DNA from: Methanobacteriota archaeon
GTDB lineage: Archaea > Thermoplasmatota > E2 > JACPAO01 > JAHWKR01
Direction of reading: 5' to 3'
NCBI GenBank assembly: GCA_019347805.1
Contig: JAHWKR010000006.1
Coordinates: 1-64,000, forward strand
DNA: 64,000 nucleotides
The position numbers and the translations under genes are program-made. The notes below the pieces were generated by a model. The model saw nothing but the letters and a program-made list of their open reading frames with translations. It made no database searches and was not told the origin of the DNA. Positions 16,707-52,604 of the stretch are shown piece by piece (within the stretch, counting starts at the first letter, position 1; each line of letters begins with the position of its first letter).

Positions 16707-17126
16707 CTATGTGGCGAAGAGCTGTCCGTCGACGTCTTGGAACCCTTTGAACTCCAGTGCGTTCCCGGACGGGTCGAGGAAGAACATGGTGGCTTGTTCG
16801 CCGGGCTCTCCTTGGAAGCGCACGTGCGGTTCGATGACGAAATCGACATGTCCGCGCAGGCGTTCGGCGAGGCGTTCCCATTCGGCCATCGCGAGGACGA
16901 CGCCGAAGTGGGGGATCGGGACGGCGTCCCCGTCGACGGGATTGTGCGCGTGTCGTCCTTGATATCCGTCGACGAGGTGGACGACGAGCTGGTGCCCGTA
17001 GAGGTCGAGGTCGACCCATCGTTCGGCGCTGCGTCCTTCGCGGCATCCGATGACATCACCGTAGAAGGCGCGCGCTTCCGGGATCGAACGCACGGGGATG
17101 GCGAGGTGGAACGGGGGTCGCATCAT
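16707..17126 (-). CDS. Glyoxalase/dioxygenase-superfamily (VOC) protein
   Basis: This protein of about 139 aa is a VOC-fold metalloprotein, with two beta-alpha-beta-beta-beta modules. The first module begins FHLAIPV and has a His ligand; the second ends in DPSGNALEFKGF with the typical Glu ligand. It resembles the extradiol-dioxygenase-like VOC members of unknown substrate. TATA (gataaaa on plus, 17146-17152) lies 23-26 nt from tandem ATGs at 17126 and 17123, so one of these is probably the leaderless start; the ATG at 17135 is less likely. Confidence 0.82.
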   Translation of the reverse strand: MMRPPFHLAIPVRSIPEARAFYGDVIGCREGRSAERWVDLDLYGHQLVVHLVDGYQGRHAHNPVDGDAVPIPHFGVVLAMAEWERLAERLRGHVDFVIEPHVRFQGEPGEQATMFFLDPSGNALEFKGFQDVDGQLFAT

Positions 17127-17177
17127 GCGCGGCATGACGGATGTTGATAAAACGGCCGGGACTCCGGCTGTGAGGTC

Positions 17178-17273
17178 CTATCCGGCGAACGCCTTGGGCA
17201 GGAGCACCGCGGCGGCGGAAAGGCAGGCGAGTGCCAACCAGAGGCGCCAGCGGTGCGCGGGGTCGCGGGGCAT
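17178..17273 (-). CDS. 31-aa membrane miniprotein (copy A)
   Basis: This short open frame encodes 31 residues: a charged N-terminus (M-PRD--HRWR), one hydrophobic helix and the C-terminal motif P-K-A-F-A-G. It lies on the opposite strand just upstream of the trypsin-like protease gene. A 31-codon frame on the other side of that gene (18358-18453) has the same length, layout and ending, with 11 of 31 ungapped identities. That paired conservation is the main support. No TATA box is obvious for this copy. Function unknown. Confidence 0.45.
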   Translation of the reverse strand: MPRDPAHRWRLWLALACLSAAAVLLPKAFAG

Positions 17274-17448
17274 CGGGATGCGAGCGTGCCACCGTGGGTT
17301 CTTGAGCTTTGTCTTTCGATACCGCGGAACACCCTCCGTCGGGTAGCACGCCCCTAGGCATCGTTGTACGCACAGCGTTGGACAGATCTGGACATCGGCC
17401 TCCCGGGGCGCCAAACGCTTTCAAGCATGGCGCCGTTGGGCCTTCTCG

Positions 17449-18348
17449 GTGCGCTGCATGCCCAGATCGTCCCGTGCGAGTAGACTCGTCCTGCCTGCGA
17501 TCGCTGTGGCGCTCTTCGTGGTGCCTCTATCCGAGCCTGGCGAGGCCGTCTATGGAGGGACGGAGGCGGCCGAGGGGGCGTATCCCTTCATGGTGCACGT
17601 CTTCATCGGCGAGCCCCATGACGGTATCGTGTGCGGTGGATCATTGGTCGCGCCGACGTTCGTTCTTACGGCGGGTCATTGCCTGCCGAGTTTTGCGGAC
17701 GACGCGTTGGGTCCGAACCTGTTCACCGGAGGGGAGGACCTTGAGGATTATCGGGTCGTGATCGGTCGCGTCGACCTGTCGGGCACCGGAGGCGAGGTCA
17801 TCGCTGTGAAGGCGGGCCATCTGCATCCCGAGTACAACATCGTCCCGTACAACCACGGCGCCGTCGCGGCGGCGAACGACATCGCCCTGCTCGAGCTGGC
17901 AGAGCCGTCTTCCTATGCACCGGCACGTCCGGCGACGAATGCCGATCTCGCTTTGTACGCCCCGGGGACCGAGGCACGCGTCCTCGGTTGGGGTTGCACG
18001 CCGGAGGTCTGCTTCCCCGAGCGCCTCATGGAGGTCGACGTACCGGTCTGGAGCGATGCCGAATGCGCGGCGGCGTCGAACTATGCCGTCATGTTCCACG
18101 CGGATTCGGAGCTGTGCGCCGGCTCGGATGGCAAGGACAGTTGTGGCGGCGACAGCGGAGGACCGCTCTTCGTGCGCGATGAAGCGGGGGATGCCGTCGT
18201 CTTCGGGGTGGTGTCCTATGGGGCCCTGTTCGAGGTGAACACGGACGACCCGTTCGCAGGGTTCGTCCCGTGCGGGAGCGATCAGCATCCCGGCGTGTAC
18301 ACCGAGGTGGCGGCGTTCGAGGACTTCCTGATGTCGTTCCTCGGCTGA
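17449..18348 (+). CDS. Secreted trypsin-like serine protease (chymotrypsin fold, S1)
   Basis: This 299-aa exported protease has a signal peptide (about 10-33) followed by the activation-site-like region EAVYGGTEAAEG. The catalytic triad is His77 (LTAGHC), Asp144 (NDIALLEL) and Ser236 (CGGDSGGP). Asp230, six residues before the Ser, occupies the S1-pocket position that gives trypsin its Lys/Arg preference. There are eight or nine cysteines, including the pair around the active His. The GTG start at 17449 is 26-27 nt from a TATA-like ctttcaag (about 17418-17425). S1 proteases of this eukaryote-like type are uncommon in archaea. It is flanked on both sides by a miniprotein gene on the other strand. 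Confidence 0.93.
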   Translation: MRCMPRSSRASRLVLPAIAVALFVVPLSEPGEAVYGGTEAAEGAYPFMVHVFIGEPHDGIVCGGSLVAPTFVLTAGHCLPSFADDALGPNLFTGGEDLEDYRVVIGRVDLSGTGGEVIAVKAGHLHPEYNIVPYNHGAVAAANDIALLELAEPSSYAPARPATNADLALYAPGTEARVLGWGCTPEVCFPERLMEVDVPVWSDAECAAASNYAVMFHADSELCAGSDGKDSCGGDSGGPLFVRDEAGDAVVFGVVSYGALFEVNTDDPFAGFVPCGSDQHPGVYTEVAAFEDFLMSFLG

Positions 18349-18357
18349 TGGTCGGGC

Positions 18358-18453
18358 TCACCCGGCAAGGACCTGCGGCATGAGCACCAGTGACACACCA
18401 AGGAGCAGGGTGGCGACGGCGAGCCGGACAAGGTCGTGGCGGTCGTGCGTCAT
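18358..18453 (-). CDS. 31-aa membrane miniprotein (copy B)
   Basis: This 31-residue open frame (M-THDRHDLVR, one hydrophobic helix, ending P-Q-V-L-A-G) starts at an ATG 27 nt downstream of a TATA-like ccttaacc (minus strand, about 18476-18484), predicting a leaderless mRNA. It lies 9 nt beyond the stop of the trypsin-like gene, convergent with it. It matches the miniprotein at 17178-17273 in length, polarity, helix position and the final P-[KQ]-x-[FL]-A-G. Possible roles are protease modulator or membrane micropeptide; none is shown. Confidence 0.5.
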   Translation of the reverse strand: MTHDRHDLVRLAVATLLLGVSLVLMPQVLAG

Positions 18454-18527
18454 CGGTCCCCCTCATGTCCGCATGCGGTTAAGGGGCGGGGGGATGGGGA
18501 CAGGTCCAGAGGTCCGTTACGGGTCCC

Positions 18528-19421
18528 TTATGCGTCCGGGGTCCACCCGTCGTCGACGAAGTCGACCGTGACGGAGCGCGGGATGTGACCGGCGTCGGCG
18601 GCCATGTCGAGGAGGAGCTGGACGGCCTTGCGTCCGTCCTCACCGTAATCGATGGTGCGGGGATTGACGTACATGCCGACGAACTCGTCCGCGAGGCCGG
18701 TGTCGAGGTCGCGTCCGAAGCCGAGCGCGTATTCGAGCGCCTCTTTGCGGTTGGCGTCGTCGAGGGCCCAGAGGATGCTGTCGCGCAGCACGCGCGAGAC
18801 GGTGGGGACGGCGTCGCCGAGGTCGCGCCGGATGGCGTTGCCGCCGAGGGGGAGCGGGAGTCCGTCGGTCTCCTTGGCCCACCACTGGTAGAGGTCGAGG
18901 GCGTTCTTCAGCCCGAGCTGCTGGAAGGTGAGCTGTCCTTCATGGATGAGGAGGCCGGCGCCGAACTCGCCGCCCGCGACGCGCTTGGGGATCTCGTCGA
19001 ACGGCACGACGACGTAGGGGAAGTCACCGATGGCGAGCTTCAGCTCGAGGAACGCGGAGGTCATCACGCCGGGGACGGCGATGATCGTGTCGCGGAGCGC
19101 TTTAGCATCGAGCTCTTCCTTGGCGACCACCATGGGCCCGTAGCCTTCGCCCATGGAGGCGCCGTGCGTAAGAAGCCGGTACTTGTCGTGGATGTGCGCA
19201 TAGGCGTGAATGGAGACCGCGGTCGCTTCCAGTCGCCCTTCGAGCGCCCATTCGTTGAGGGTCTCGATGTCGCGGTGCAGTTCCACGAACCGGTGGCCGC
19301 GCGTGTCGACCTTGCCCTTCGCGACGGCGTAATGCATGAACGCGTCGTCGGGGTCGGGGCTGTGGCCGAGCCGGATCGTCGTCTCGTCCTGGCGTTCCGG
19401 GACCTCGAGTGTCTGGGGCAC
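18528..19421 (-). CDS. mqnD: MqnD-like 1,4-dihydroxy-6-naphthoate synthase
   Basis: This 297-aa protein of the MqnA/MqnD periplasmic-binding-fold family is closest to MqnD, which converts cyclic de-hypoxanthinyl futalosine to 1,4-dihydroxy-6-naphthoate in the futalosine route to menaquinone. The N-terminus shows the family motif HSPDPDDAFMHYA (about 19-31), followed by the ligand-binding VSIHAYAH region and LPLGGNAIRR. The GTG at 19421 lies 25 nt from a TATA box (CTTTATAC, 19442-19449), so it is read as leaderless. No other mqn genes are in the window. A family paralogue with a different product is possible. Confidence 0.82.
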   Translation of the reverse strand: MPQTLEVPERQDETTIRLGHSPDPDDAFMHYAVAKGKVDTRGHRFVELHRDIETLNEWALEGRLEATAVSIHAYAHIHDKYRLLTHGASMGEGYGPMVVAKEELDAKALRDTIIAVPGVMTSAFLELKLAIGDFPYVVVPFDEIPKRVAGGEFGAGLLIHEGQLTFQQLGLKNALDLYQWWAKETDGLPLPLGGNAIRRDLGDAVPTVSRVLRDSILWALDDANRKEALEYALGFGRDLDTGLADEFVGMYVNPRTIDYGEDGRKAVQLLLDMAADAGHIPRSVTVDFVDDGWTPDA

Positions 19422-19441
19422 GGATGTGGGGATGGGGTGGC

Positions 19442-19449
19442 GTATAAAG
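19442..19449 (-). promoter_or_regulatory. TATA box of mqnD
   Basis: CTTTATAC on the minus strand is centred about 25 nt before the GTG start at 19421, predicting a leaderless transcript. Confidence 0.6.
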
Positions 19450-19486
19450 CGATTAGGGGTGGTGAAGGGTGATGGTTGCAAACCAC

Positions 19487-19511
19487 GGGGGTGGGGGTGT
19501 GGGGGAGGGGG
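19487..19511 (+). other. G-quadruplex motif (four runs of five G)
   Basis: Four G5 tracts are separated by loops of 1, 3 and 1 nt on the plus strand, in the gap between the mqnD promoter and the 3' end of the beta-helix gene. It overlaps the left arm of the hairpin at 19499-19529. Confidence 0.7.
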
Positions 19512-19529
19512 CCAAGCCCCCTCCCCCAC
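19499..19529. terminator. Perfect 14-bp GC-rich hairpin (3-nt loop)
   Basis: The arms gtgggggagggggc and gccccctcccccac pair perfectly around a caa loop. It lies 100 nt downstream of the beta-helix gene stop and 78 nt upstream of the mqnD start. No T-tract follows on either strand, so it could be a terminator-like structure, a transcript-end stabiliser, or the remains of a mobile palindrome. Confidence 0.5.
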
Positions 19530-26112: not shown

Positions 26113-26265
26113 ATGGACGATCGGGATGCCCGCCGCAATCGCGTCGGTATTCAGACGATCGCATCAGGGCGCGCTCGAGCGCTGCTGTACCTTGGGGGAG
26201 CGTTCGCTGCATATCTCACTGCTTTTGCTTATATACTTGGAGGTGCCATTCTCTATGCGGTCTAA
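26113..26265 (+). CDS. Possible 50-aa single-span membrane protein
   Basis: This open frame of 50 codons has a basic N-terminus (DARRN, GRAR) and a C-terminal hydrophobic helix (LLYLGGAFAAYLTAFAYI). Its stop lies 4 nt before the next small gene, inside that gene's ribosome-site region. The helix quality and spacing are the only support. It may instead be a shadow. Confidence 0.32.
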   Translation: MDDRDARRNRVGIQTIASGRARALLYLGGAFAAYLTAFAYILGGAILYAV

Positions 26266-26269
26266 GGTC

Positions 26270-26404
26270 ATGTCCGAGAAGAAGCGAGTCCGGCTCAAGA
26301 TCAAGGATCTGGGGACGACGTACATCCCTTTGAACGCGGCGAGGATGCCCGAGTTCGTACGTCTGAACAAGACGCCGCCGCTTGTCGACGACGAAGAGTC
26401 CTGA
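26270..26404 (+). CDS. Small basic protein, unknown function
   Basis: This 44-aa protein has a strongly basic N-terminus (SEKKRVRLKIKD) and an acidic end (VDDEES). An in-frame ATG at 26255 (5 codons earlier) has GGAGGTG 9 nt upstream and is an alternative start. A TATA box (ttatata, 26229-26235) lies 35-40 nt before 26270. Good promoter and ribosome-site signals for such a short frame argue that it is real. It could be a nucleic-acid-binding or ribosome-associated protein; no family is recognised. Confidence 0.55.
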   Translation: MSEKKRVRLKIKDLGTTYIPLNAARMPEFVRLNKTPPLVDDEES

Positions 26405-48632: not shown

Positions 48633-50294
48633 GTGCCATCCCTCCCGGAGAGGCCGGCCGAGCATCAGCTAGCAGCCGAAGCTGAGCTGAAACTTCGGAG
48701 CGTCTTACCCTATGACTGGACTCTTCAAAAAATCGAGGATGATTACGGCATCGATTTCCTACTTGAGGTATTCGAGGATGGGCAAACCACCGGACGAATT
48801 CTCCTTATACAACTGAAGGGGATCTCACAGGTTCGGACGGATTCACCTTCTGTTTCCGTACGGCTCAAATCGAGCACTTTGCAATACTTCACTCAATTGC
48901 CATTGCCCTGCATCCTTGTGGTGTGGGATGCACGTAATGAGCGCCTTTTGTGGTCGCATGTTCAGGACCAGATCCTTGAGCAGGTAAAGAGTGACGGTCC
49001 TGAATGGTTCAATGCCAAGACACGGGTCGTTCGGATGAAGGGAGAAGACCGTATTACGGGTCAAGAGGATTTTCGGAAAGTAGCTGCTCGTCTTCCCTTT
49101 CCTGGATCGAGGTATCAATCGGAAATACAGGCTTTGATCAGCCAGCGGCAGCGAACTGTGACTGCGCAGTTGGTTCGCCTCCTGTCGCAAAATGCAGCAC
49201 CACTTTCTCTTAAGGAAGCCTCAGAGCAACTTCGTAAGAACGGGGTCGCCAACTGCTCAGTTGAAGAGATCGCGATGACTGTGGAGACATATGGATGCGC
49301 CCTCCTTCGCTGTACTGGTGGTTCATTGTCACTGTGTCCGATGAATGTCGCTGGATTGGTCGCAGGCATCGATTGTCTGGGGGACCAAGCTCTGGAATTA
49401 CCCGGACTAAAGGAATCCGGGGGATTCGATTCGTACTATATGGGGAACATAGTGGCGATCAATGTAGTGACAGGTCGATTAACGTATCGCTTCATGAATC
49501 GACTCAGGATTCTCAATCCACGTCTTTTTATGGAATCTGTGCGTGCTATGATGATTCTGGCCCCGTCAAATTGCCAGCAATTGGAAGGGGTTCGGGTTGA
49601 TACGCGGGTTGGTCCGAATGACGAAGGTCGCTTCGTATCTCATCATGAAGTCAGGTTCGTGGACCCTGCTATTGCGGCACTCCTTGAAGGAGTAGACCGA
49701 ACAGCGGATGCATGGTTCGAATTTGTTGGAACTGATGAATTCGGCTACCTTGTAGAGATGGAAGCCCTGGAACGACCGTCTTCAGAGGGCGCCGCACTAA
49801 TCACGAATGAGGCACGGGATGAAAAAGGAGGCATGCGCTTCACATTGGTACAACGGACTCAAGCCAAGCGAGTGCGTGCAATCCGTGTCGCTCATGTCTT
49901 GCGCAAGGATCAGGTCTTATGGAAAGTATGGATGCCTGCATCCGAGCCTACCCGACCTGAAATTACCATTGGCAAAAAGAAATTCGCTATAGTGGGTGGG
50001 CCACCTGGATATGGTAATTCTTTGTCTGGTCAAATTCGGCCCGATGGCAAAGGAGAACGCATGATCATAGATGGTTATGTCCTGCTTGAGACCCATTTCG
50101 GTATTGACCTCGATGACTCACACATGCCGCCTGAGGTAAGGGAGTTCCTCTTGGTCAACGATCAAGATCCTGCAAGTTTAAAAATATTATTCTTGTACCC
50201 ATCCTTGATCAGAAAACCTTTACCCGATCCAGTTTTGACCGTCCTTCGTGGCCGCTACGAGGAGGTTATAGTTGAACCGATACTACAGGATTAG
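48633..50294 (+). CDS. DUF4365-domain protein (nuclease-like, defence-associated)
   Basis: This 553-aa protein has an N-terminal DUF4365 domain (about 8-150) with DYGIDFLLEVFEDG (Asp41, Glu45) and the QLK motif at 60-62, a PD-(D/E)XK-like nuclease signature. The C-terminal 400 residues are of unknown family. Base composition is clearly more AT-rich than the surrounding genes. TATA (gattatgc, 48603-48610) is 26-27 nt from the GTG start. It is convergent with the endonuclease of the R-M pair (4-nt overlap of the 3' ends). DUF4365 proteins often occur in defence islands. Confidence 0.72.
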   Translation: MPSLPERPAEHQLAAEAELKLRSVLPYDWTLQKIEDDYGIDFLLEVFEDGQTTGRILLIQLKGISQVRTDSPSVSVRLKSSTLQYFTQLPLPCILVVWDARNERLLWSHVQDQILEQVKSDGPEWFNAKTRVVRMKGEDRITGQEDFRKVAARLPFPGSRYQSEIQALISQRQRTVTAQLVRLLSQNAAPLSLKEASEQLRKNGVANCSVEEIAMTVETYGCALLRCTGGSLSLCPMNVAGLVAGIDCLGDQALELPGLKESGGFDSYYMGNIVAINVVTGRLTYRFMNRLRILNPRLFMESVRAMMILAPSNCQQLEGVRVDTRVGPNDEGRFVSHHEVRFVDPAIAALLEGVDRTADAWFEFVGTDEFGYLVEMEALERPSSEGAALITNEARDEKGGMRFTLVQRTQAKRVRAIRVAHVLRKDQVLWKVWMPASEPTRPEITIGKKKFAIVGGPPGYGNSLSGQIRPDGKGERMIIDGYVLLETHFGIDLDDSHMPPEVREFLLVNDQDPASLKILFLYPSLIRKPLPDPVLTVLRGRYEEVIVEPILQD

Positions 50295-51112
50295 TTCTTT
50301 CCGTCATCAGTCCTAAGTCGCTTGTATTGTTCAAGGTCCTCGTCCGAGATATCATCATGCGCAACAAGCCTATAGTGGCACTCTTTGATGATGACCACTT
50401 TTCCCGCTTGCTCGCCGAATTGGAACAATGCGACCACTCCATCTGACATAAATTGCGCTGCGACTGGTACGCATATAGCTTCCGATAAGTGCTTCTTGTC
50501 ACGGCAAACTGCCAGATCCTGTTCAATTTGAACCACACTTAATCGGTCATTCCCTCCTTTTGCCTGAACGGGTATAGCGTAATTGATACCTCGACCGTCG
50601 ACTCCCACATATAACTCGTCAGTTTCGACCTGACCGATTCCAGATGCTGTCGTTCGTAAGTGATTCTGAAGCGAGTAGCACGTAATCCCGGTAAAAATAT
50701 CGATTAATCTGTTATAGCGGACAATTGCCAATAGCGCCTGTTCGTCTGACATTGCATACCGTTTCACGATTTCGGGAGTAGAATCGGGAATCTTTGTGAC
50801 CATCAAGTTGGGGTTAGGAGATAGGTCAATATCGTCGACTAAAGCAAAGCAATATTTCCCGCGGCCAATTAATCGGATAATCCAGCGTTTCCCCTTTGGC
50901 CGTGTTGATTGAATTTTTTGAGGCATATCTTTGCGAAAGCGGTAAGCGCTGACAACATCCCCTAAGTTTGCTGGGATCTTTAATCCCAAGGACTGCGCAG
51001 CAGCCGGGATATCATCGCGATCAAAAAGAATTTCTGTTTGGCCAGCTTTATATCGATCTGTAAAAATCTTTTCAATAATTGCTTCGTAGACATTGGTATT
51101 TTGTTTGGGCAT
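50291..51112 (-). CDS. Putative restriction endonuclease
   Basis: This 273-aa protein is encoded directly after a DNA methyltransferase gene (5-nt gap). It has a likely PD-(D/E)XK core: acidic residues in QVETDELYVGVDGRG (about Glu166, Asp172) and the VQAKGG strand (Gln183, Lys185), a Q-x-K variant of E-x-K. AT-rich composition matches its neighbours. The ATG at 51112 is preferred over a TTG at 51127 inside the methyltransferase end. It would form a type II R-M pair; the recognition site cannot be read from sequence. Confidence 0.72.
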   Translation of the reverse strand: MPKQNTNVYEAIIEKIFTDRYKAGQTEILFDRDDIPAAAQSLGLKIPANLGDVVSAYRFRKDMPQKIQSTRPKGKRWIIRLIGRGKYCFALVDDIDLSPNPNLMVTKIPDSTPEIVKRYAMSDEQALLAIVRYNRLIDIFTGITCYSLQNHLRTTASGIGQVETDELYVGVDGRGINYAIPVQAKGGNDRLSVVQIEQDLAVCRDKKHLSEAICVPVAAQFMSDGVVALFQFGEQAGKVVIIKECHYRLVAHDDISDEDLEQYKRLRTDDGKN

Positions 51113-51117
51113 ACGCG

Positions 51118-52443
51118 CTACTTCCAAGAGAGGATAACTGCTTCTTCGTTTAGTCGTTCTCTTGTCACAGTCGAAAATCTCGTCCTAAACAAGTCTATCC
51201 CCTCAACATTGTAACCTAGATCTTTAGCAACTATCGCCAAGAGCTGACCTGTTGGAATTTTGATCCGGAAATATGAGGCTTGATCACCTACTACGTAAGC
51301 AAGTCTCCCACCTGGACGCATTTTCTGTGATAACTCTAGGAGATGTTTAGCCATTCCTCCAAAATATAATCGGGTGACTCGGGGGTACATCTTTTCGAAT
51401 CCCGACGTTTTTCCGAGCTCGACCCGCTTTGATTCAATTTTATCTGCTAAGTCACAAATTTCTGGGATGTGAGATATTAATCGGTCGTGTTGGTCGCTCT
51501 TGTAGACGTTGCGTGTATTTGATGCAAGGAGGCCCTGCTTTAATGCCCGAAGATCTGCTCGATTGCTCATGAAGCCAAGAAACACAGATTCCAGCCGCGT
51601 TGTCCGAGTATAATCCTTTTCATTCGGATACGGAGGCGACGTGATAACTGCGTCAACCGATGCGTCATCCAAAACGTCTAGTGTTCGCGCGTCACTCGGG
51701 AAGCATTCCGACACCGCTGTACTCCCACTCTTGACGGCCCTCAAGTCGGAGGTCATGGCTTGAATGGCAGCCTGCCAGTGCTTTGTCACTGGACTGTCAT
51801 CCTTTTGACCCCGCACTCCAACTTCAGGACCGAAGTGAAGGTTGCTCGCGTGGTTCACAACCGCGGAAGCGAAGGCTAGGCGTTCATGTTCATAGTACTG
51901 GTCGTTGCGCAAGTCTTCGATAGTTTCGATGAGCCGCATCGCTCTGTGTAAGGGAACTGGAGAGATTGAATTCGTGAGAATCAATTTTTCCGCATCGGGA
52001 GGTAATTTTAACAGTTTTTCAGTCTTTACGCTGGTCGCCCTAAATTCCCCTTCTGGCACCAGGCCATCTTCAATCAGCGCATCTGTCGTCATCCTAGCGA
52101 CAACATTGGCATGCCTTTGAAGGCCTTTTGGACTAACCTCCCACGAAGTCTTTACACGCGATGCAAAGTGAGCTACCGGATTAGCTTCCGTGCCTACGCT
52201 CCGGATGCCATTCTTCTTGCATTCTACAAGAGTTGTACCGGTTCCACAAAAAGGGTCGTACACGAGGTCGCCCGGACGCACCTTGAATTTTTCGAGGTAA
52301 AGCCGGACTAGATGAGGAGGGTATGAAAGTACAAACCGATACCACCGATGAACGGGTAGATCCTCCGGGCGAATTTTGTTATCTTCGGCAATAGCGTTAT
52401 GATCCGTCGGCCTGCTGTATTGTAGAGTCTGCTGCCTTCCCAT
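51118..52443 (-). CDS. DNA methyltransferase (type II R-M)
   Basis: This 441-aa SAM-dependent DNA methylase has motif I DPFCGTGT (63-70) and the catalytic motif IV SPPY (269-272), the N4-cytosine/N6-adenine type. Motif I precedes IV, a permuted order. The first 40 residues may recognise DNA. TATA (CATAAATACC, minus, 52466-52475) lies 27-28 nt from the ATG, so it is leaderless. It is AT-rich like its partner and is transcribed before the endonuclease, the order that protects the host. Confidence 0.85.
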   Translation of the reverse strand: MGRQQTLQYSRPTDHNAIAEDNKIRPEDLPVHRWYRFVLSYPPHLVRLYLEKFKVRPGDLVYDPFCGTGTTLVECKKNGIRSVGTEANPVAHFASRVKTSWEVSPKGLQRHANVVARMTTDALIEDGLVPEGEFRATSVKTEKLLKLPPDAEKLILTNSISPVPLHRAMRLIETIEDLRNDQYYEHERLAFASAVVNHASNLHFGPEVGVRGQKDDSPVTKHWQAAIQAMTSDLRAVKSGSTAVSECFPSDARTLDVLDDASVDAVITSPPYPNEKDYTRTTRLESVFLGFMSNRADLRALKQGLLASNTRNVYKSDQHDRLISHIPEICDLADKIESKRVELGKTSGFEKMYPRVTRLYFGGMAKHLLELSQKMRPGGRLAYVVGDQASYFRIKIPTGQLLAIVAKDLGYNVEGIDLFRTRFSTVTRERLNEEAVILSWK

Positions 52444-52604
52444 CGTTGACTTCCAAAGCCTGTCTGGTATTTATGGGTGCAGAGGAGAGGTGACTGGGAG
52501 TACTCCTCAACTGGCTCCACGCGAAAACGACCTCACCGACCTGCTACGCTGAAGCATACTTTGCGAGCGTTGTCCGCCACTCTTTTCTGAAGGCGCTATA
52601 CGAC

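Follow-up and report, generated by a model that had tools for sequence, protein, structure and literature searches.

Two frames of 31 codons, A and B, flank the gene for a secreted S1 protease in the window (the whole 64,000-nucleotide stretch of DNA that was analysed), and each appears to encode a full signal peptide of the Sec type and one Gly before the stop codon (Table 1). The frames had been seen correctly in the original prediction, and they are probably real genes, as judged from their composition and the boxes upstream of them. However, the ending P-[KQ]-x-[FL]-A-G, which had been proposed as the signature of an undescribed family, is the usual cleavage motif for Sec signal peptidase in this genome. 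We consider A and B most likely to be free-standing genes for membrane miniproteins comparable to MntS and TimP, with a probability of roughly one half.

Table 1. Frames A and B, their promoter-like boxes and the neighbouring genes (positions in the window).
Feature	Position	Strand	Description
Frame A	17178..17273	minus	31 codons, TAG stop; translation MPRDPAHRWRLWLALACLSAAAVLLPKAFAG; n-region MPRDPAHRWR, 15-residue h-region LWLALACLSAAAVLL, c-region PKAFA, Gly at +1
Frame B	18358..18453	minus	31 codons, TGA stop; translation MTHDRHDLVRLAVATLLLGVSLVLMPQVLAG; n-region MTHDRHDLVR, 15-residue h-region LAVATLLLGVSLVLM, c-region PQVLA, Gly at +1
Promoter-like box of A	17300..17309	minus	AAGCTCAAGA; 36 nt before ATG; 6.9 bits
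Promoter-like box of B	18477..18486	minus	CCCCTTAACC; 33 nt before ATG; 1.0 bit
Secreted S1 (trypsin) protease gene	17449..18348	plus	PF00089, E = 2.7e-38; between A and B; box AACGCTTTCA at -35
Glyoxalase-domain gene	16707..17135	minus	follows A at a distance of 42 nt; start probably at 17123
Box of the glyoxalase-domain gene	17147..17156		GCCGTTTTAT; between A and the glyoxalase-domain gene
MqnD-like menaquinone biosynthesis gene	18528..19454	minus	PF02621; ends 74 nt upstream of B

Both minus-strand frames translate as originally described, and the 11 ungapped identities over 31 positions were found again (BLOSUM score 40). The frames are equal in length, share the strand and are separated by 1.2 kb. 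The h-region comprises residues 11-25 in A and in B and is uncharged and hydrophobic, with a Kyte-Doolittle maximum of 1.94 in A and 2.39 in B. The n-region carries three Arg and one Asp in A, and two Arg and two Asp in B, the latter balance being weak for a signal peptide. In each frame the stop codon directly follows the Gly at +1, and no mature protein lies behind it. Note that the reading frame of A stays open 5' of its ATG (78 amino acid residues from a TTG), which calls for caution.

Sec signal peptides have a short n-region containing basic residues and an uncharged core of about 7-15 residues, with small residues at -3 and -1 after a helix breaker and a small residue at +1. A hydrophobic core of 15 residues is in the typical range for a signal peptide, whereas membrane-spanning helices are usually longer. 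When the ends of A and B are read as a signal-peptidase I site, the Pro falls at -5, with Ala (A) or Val (B) at -3, a further Ala at -1 and Gly at +1; among 25 signal peptides from this genome, 21 have a Pro between -6 and -4. Using a cleavage-site matrix built from the 25 signal peptides of predicted secreted proteins from the same genome, the C-terminal octamers (PKAFA/G and PQVLA/G, with the cleavage point marked by a slash) scored 7.2 bits in A and 6.3 bits in B against a leave-one-out median of 6.7 bits for the 25 signal peptides, which had been picked by rule and by hand with the A-x-A rule among the criteria, so that the matrix is tilted towards the A-x-A motif. The score of A was reached by none of 565 other intergenic micro-ORF ends, and that of B by 0.35%. 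A similar signal peptide, ending in SFVLLLPGALA/GG, is encoded at C35:12793 in the same genome. The match in the h-region and at the cleavage site, with the stop codon one residue further on, indicates that each frame is a bare signal peptide with one Gly. As the shared ending is an ordinary cutting site of export signals, it does not mark a new protein family.

As the background for the likeness between A and B, we aligned the genome's signal peptides on their cleavage points and scored 300 pairs (mean 13.8). A and B came out on top with 40, the best pairs of unrelated signal peptides scored 39, 36 and 36, and one unrelated pair likewise had 11 identities over 31 positions. Since A and B are still the top pair, an old duplication is possible, but with unrelated signal peptides reaching 39, common descent is unproven. 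It is doubtful, in our estimation, that A and B are paralogues which arose by duplication around the protease, belong to an undescribed family of single-span membrane miniproteins and act together with the protease, for example in its export or in membrane quality control. In a 432-kb genome sample (368 kb of stretches plus the window, with the nested ORFs of one array excluded), the two frames do rank first among the 231 pairs of hydrophobic intergenic micro-ORFs, their BLOSUM score has P = 0.00025 when the regions are shuffled separately, and their equal length, common strand and close spacing fit a duplication. However, the edge over unrelated signal peptides amounts to one point in a pair that was chosen post hoc, equal length occurs in 5% of the signal-peptide pairs of this genome, and the flanks have no DNA similarity. 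Whether or not an old duplication took place, the signal-peptide character of the two frames seems to be the main source of their likeness. Segmental duplication was rejected: the DNA similarity ends at the frame ends, and no repeat pair links the two frames.

The family reading is further weakened by the homologue searches. No third copy was detected in the genome itself, either by homology searches or with the C-terminal pattern, which gave seven matches in the whole genome compared with five for the reversed control; among the seven, A and B alone are hydrophobic frames. Searches with A, B and a two-row profile detected no relatives in 59 genomes of relatives or in 80 genomes of the class, and none were found in 390 genomes of the phylum, where three weak matches correspond to the chance level for that many genomes; there were no same-genus genomes among those searched. 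Two of these three matches, and ten further matches that we inspected, lie inside unrelated or broken frames, the ten being fragments at chance level. Homology searches of viral contigs and plasmids also yielded no relatives, and Pfam and NCBIfam gave nothing credible for A or B.

Another group of micro-ORFs (IDTRP), which at first looked like a stronger family, turned out to consist of nested starts within genes for proteins of about 313 amino acid residues. These are five paralogous proteins in a tandem array (L118 19283; L119 286, 1297, 2497 and 3433; C63:78.4-83.6 kb), each of which carries the motif I(I/D)DTRP-x-G, a hydrophobic helix at the C-terminus and a basic tail. Three of the five were overlooked by the codon model.

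For the codon model, 49 genes from the window served as the training set. Among the 53 intergenic ATG micro-ORFs of 22-45 amino acid residues in the window, B has the top codon score and A the seventh; the score of A alone is modest, being matched by 15% of shadow ORFs. Under a first-order Markov null of the spacer DNA, the number expected per window is 0.73 for hydrophobic micro-ORFs and 0.017 for those that also look coding, whereas two of the latter were found. The 432-kb sample contains only 11 hydrophobic micro-ORFs with positive codon scores, and A and B are the sole pair among them within 1.2 kb. The identity between A and B exceeds that of region-wise codon shuffles at codon positions 1 (P = 0.04) and 2 (P = 0.003), and there is no excess at codon position 3 (P = 0.36).

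A promoter model learned from 198 gene starts, from which A and B had been left out, places the box about 33-36 nt 5' of the start codon, a distance suiting leaderless transcripts. The score of the box of A was reached by 0.36% of 560 intergenic micro-ORFs, and that of the box of B belongs to the top 8.75% of the 560. The TATA box reported upstream of B was recovered as CTTAA at -30 to -26, and A has a promoter-like box too. From composition and promoter position, we infer that A and B are transcribed and translated, translation being likely for B and plausible for A. That they are chance open frames in GC-rich spacer DNA and are not translated is very unlikely in our view: the codon score of A is within the reach of shadow ORFs, A has no Shine-Dalgarno-like motif on direct reading, and the searched genomes hold no homologues, but the Markov expectation, the first rank of B, the promoter boxes and the agreement of the C-termini with cleavage sites all stand against it. 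As an observation apart, two adjoining short frames lie on the plus strand at 26113-26404, one of 50 amino acid residues with a hydrophobic helix and one of 44-49 residues that is basic and has a high codon score and a promoter-like box; they are probably a pair of unannotated small genes.

The protease on the strand opposite to A and B was confirmed. Its nearest solved relatives are trypsins, the box in front of it supports a GTG start, and it has no relative in the 79 other class genomes searched. The glyoxalase-domain gene has its own promoter-like box and is therefore probably not in an operon with A. Between 17123 and 17273, A and this gene share one frame, split by one TAG and 14 otherwise open codons. 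A secreted glyoxalase produced by read-through of this TAG was considered and rejected, since TAG is in regular use as a stop here, ending 94 of the 310 predicted genes, and the promoter-like box lies in between; for the same reasons, we take the shared frame to be a coincidence. The nearest relatives of the MqnD-like gene in GTDB contigs are distant (52-62% identity), and almost all of them are bacterial loci. The glyoxalase-domain and MqnD-like genes were not found in any of the order's three other genomes. The block 16707-19529 has probably been acquired laterally, as far as gene content and relatives indicate, and the stretch around A and B looks lineage-specific. Just upstream of the MqnD-like gene, at 19499-19529, there is a perfect 14-nt inverted repeat (GTGGGGGAGGGGGC / GCCCCCTCCCCCAC) with a 3-nt loop. 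Elsewhere in the window, 3.9 kb at 48666-52604 with a GC content of about 51%, in a window of 65% GC, contains no gene with typical codon use and looks like a foreign insertion.

This setting bears on the possibility that A and B are leftover signal-peptide ends of two genes for secreted proteins, the mature parts of which were lost during assembly of the laterally acquired stretch. The stop one residue past the cleavage site in each frame fits such remnants, none of the protease, glyoxalase-domain and MqnD-like genes occurs in the order's three other genomes, which suggests a rearranged region, and orphan start fragments require no function. Nevertheless, we regard this explanation as unlikely: two independent truncations would have to fall, by coincidence, one residue beyond the cleavage site, and A and B keep promoter-like boxes and typical codon use. 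Moreover, no remnant of a mature domain is visible; only 42 nt separate A from the glyoxalase start, and B runs into the end of the convergent protease gene. The position of the frames around the protease also raises the idea that they are co-inherited free-standing signal-peptide genes serving it, for example through an adjustment of the Sec translocon or the membrane during its export, to which we assign a low probability.

In the preferred reading, as genes for free-standing signal peptides, A and B would be short and probably leaderless. From what is generally known of signal peptides, the product would insert N-in, via Sec or spontaneously, and having no mature domain to release would remain in the membrane as a single span of about 30 residues, from which the terminal Gly may be lost. 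The likeliest role would be that of a membrane miniprotein derived from a signal peptide, comparable to MntS or TimP, that acts on a membrane partner or on the state of the membrane. It counts against this reading that the searched genomes offer no homologue in which purifying selection would be visible.

A and B share with the Sec signal peptides processed by signal peptidase I a short polar n-region, the 15-residue h-region, Pro at -5, the A/V-x-A motif and the small +1 residue; however, those signal peptides carry a mature protein, whereas A and B stop one residue past the cleavage point. MntS of E. coli is reported to be a small protein evolved from a signal peptide (title cited in PMC11539335), and its likeness to A and B is in being short, free-standing and of signal-peptide character. 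In TimP of Salmonella, which has 38 amino acid residues, the Sec signal sequence is not cleaved and remains in the inner membrane (PMC7667032). A Sec signal sequence thus forms the basis of this small membrane protein, as is predicted for A and B, but TimP extends 18 residues past the predicted site and has Leu at -3, whereas A and B extend one residue and have a favourable -3 residue. The short single-span regulators MgtS (31 amino acid residues), KdpF and Prli42 (PMC11539335, PMC7667032) resemble A and B in size and in the single hydrophobic helix, whereas in A and B the 15-residue core is rather short to span a membrane and runs into a cleavage motif. In Methanosarcina mazei, hundreds of unannotated short frames are translated, and one product is membrane-associated (PMC11456600). 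Such genes are thus to be expected in archaea. The organism analysed here is archaeal: its genome encodes ribosomal protein S28e, which gave a signal in the archaeal controls only.

The view that frames of this size are too short for ordinary annotation held good, with two hydrophobic 31-codon genes that are probably real. Very short genes are known to elude annotation. The practical lesson is that a 'P-x-x-[FL]-A-G' end behind a hydrophobic core is a signal-peptidase site, and that the likeness between such frames should be judged against other signal peptides, random sequence being the wrong background. Some small regulators are thought to have begun as signal peptides that stood alone. Provided that A and B are translated, they would give two archaeal examples of that stage.
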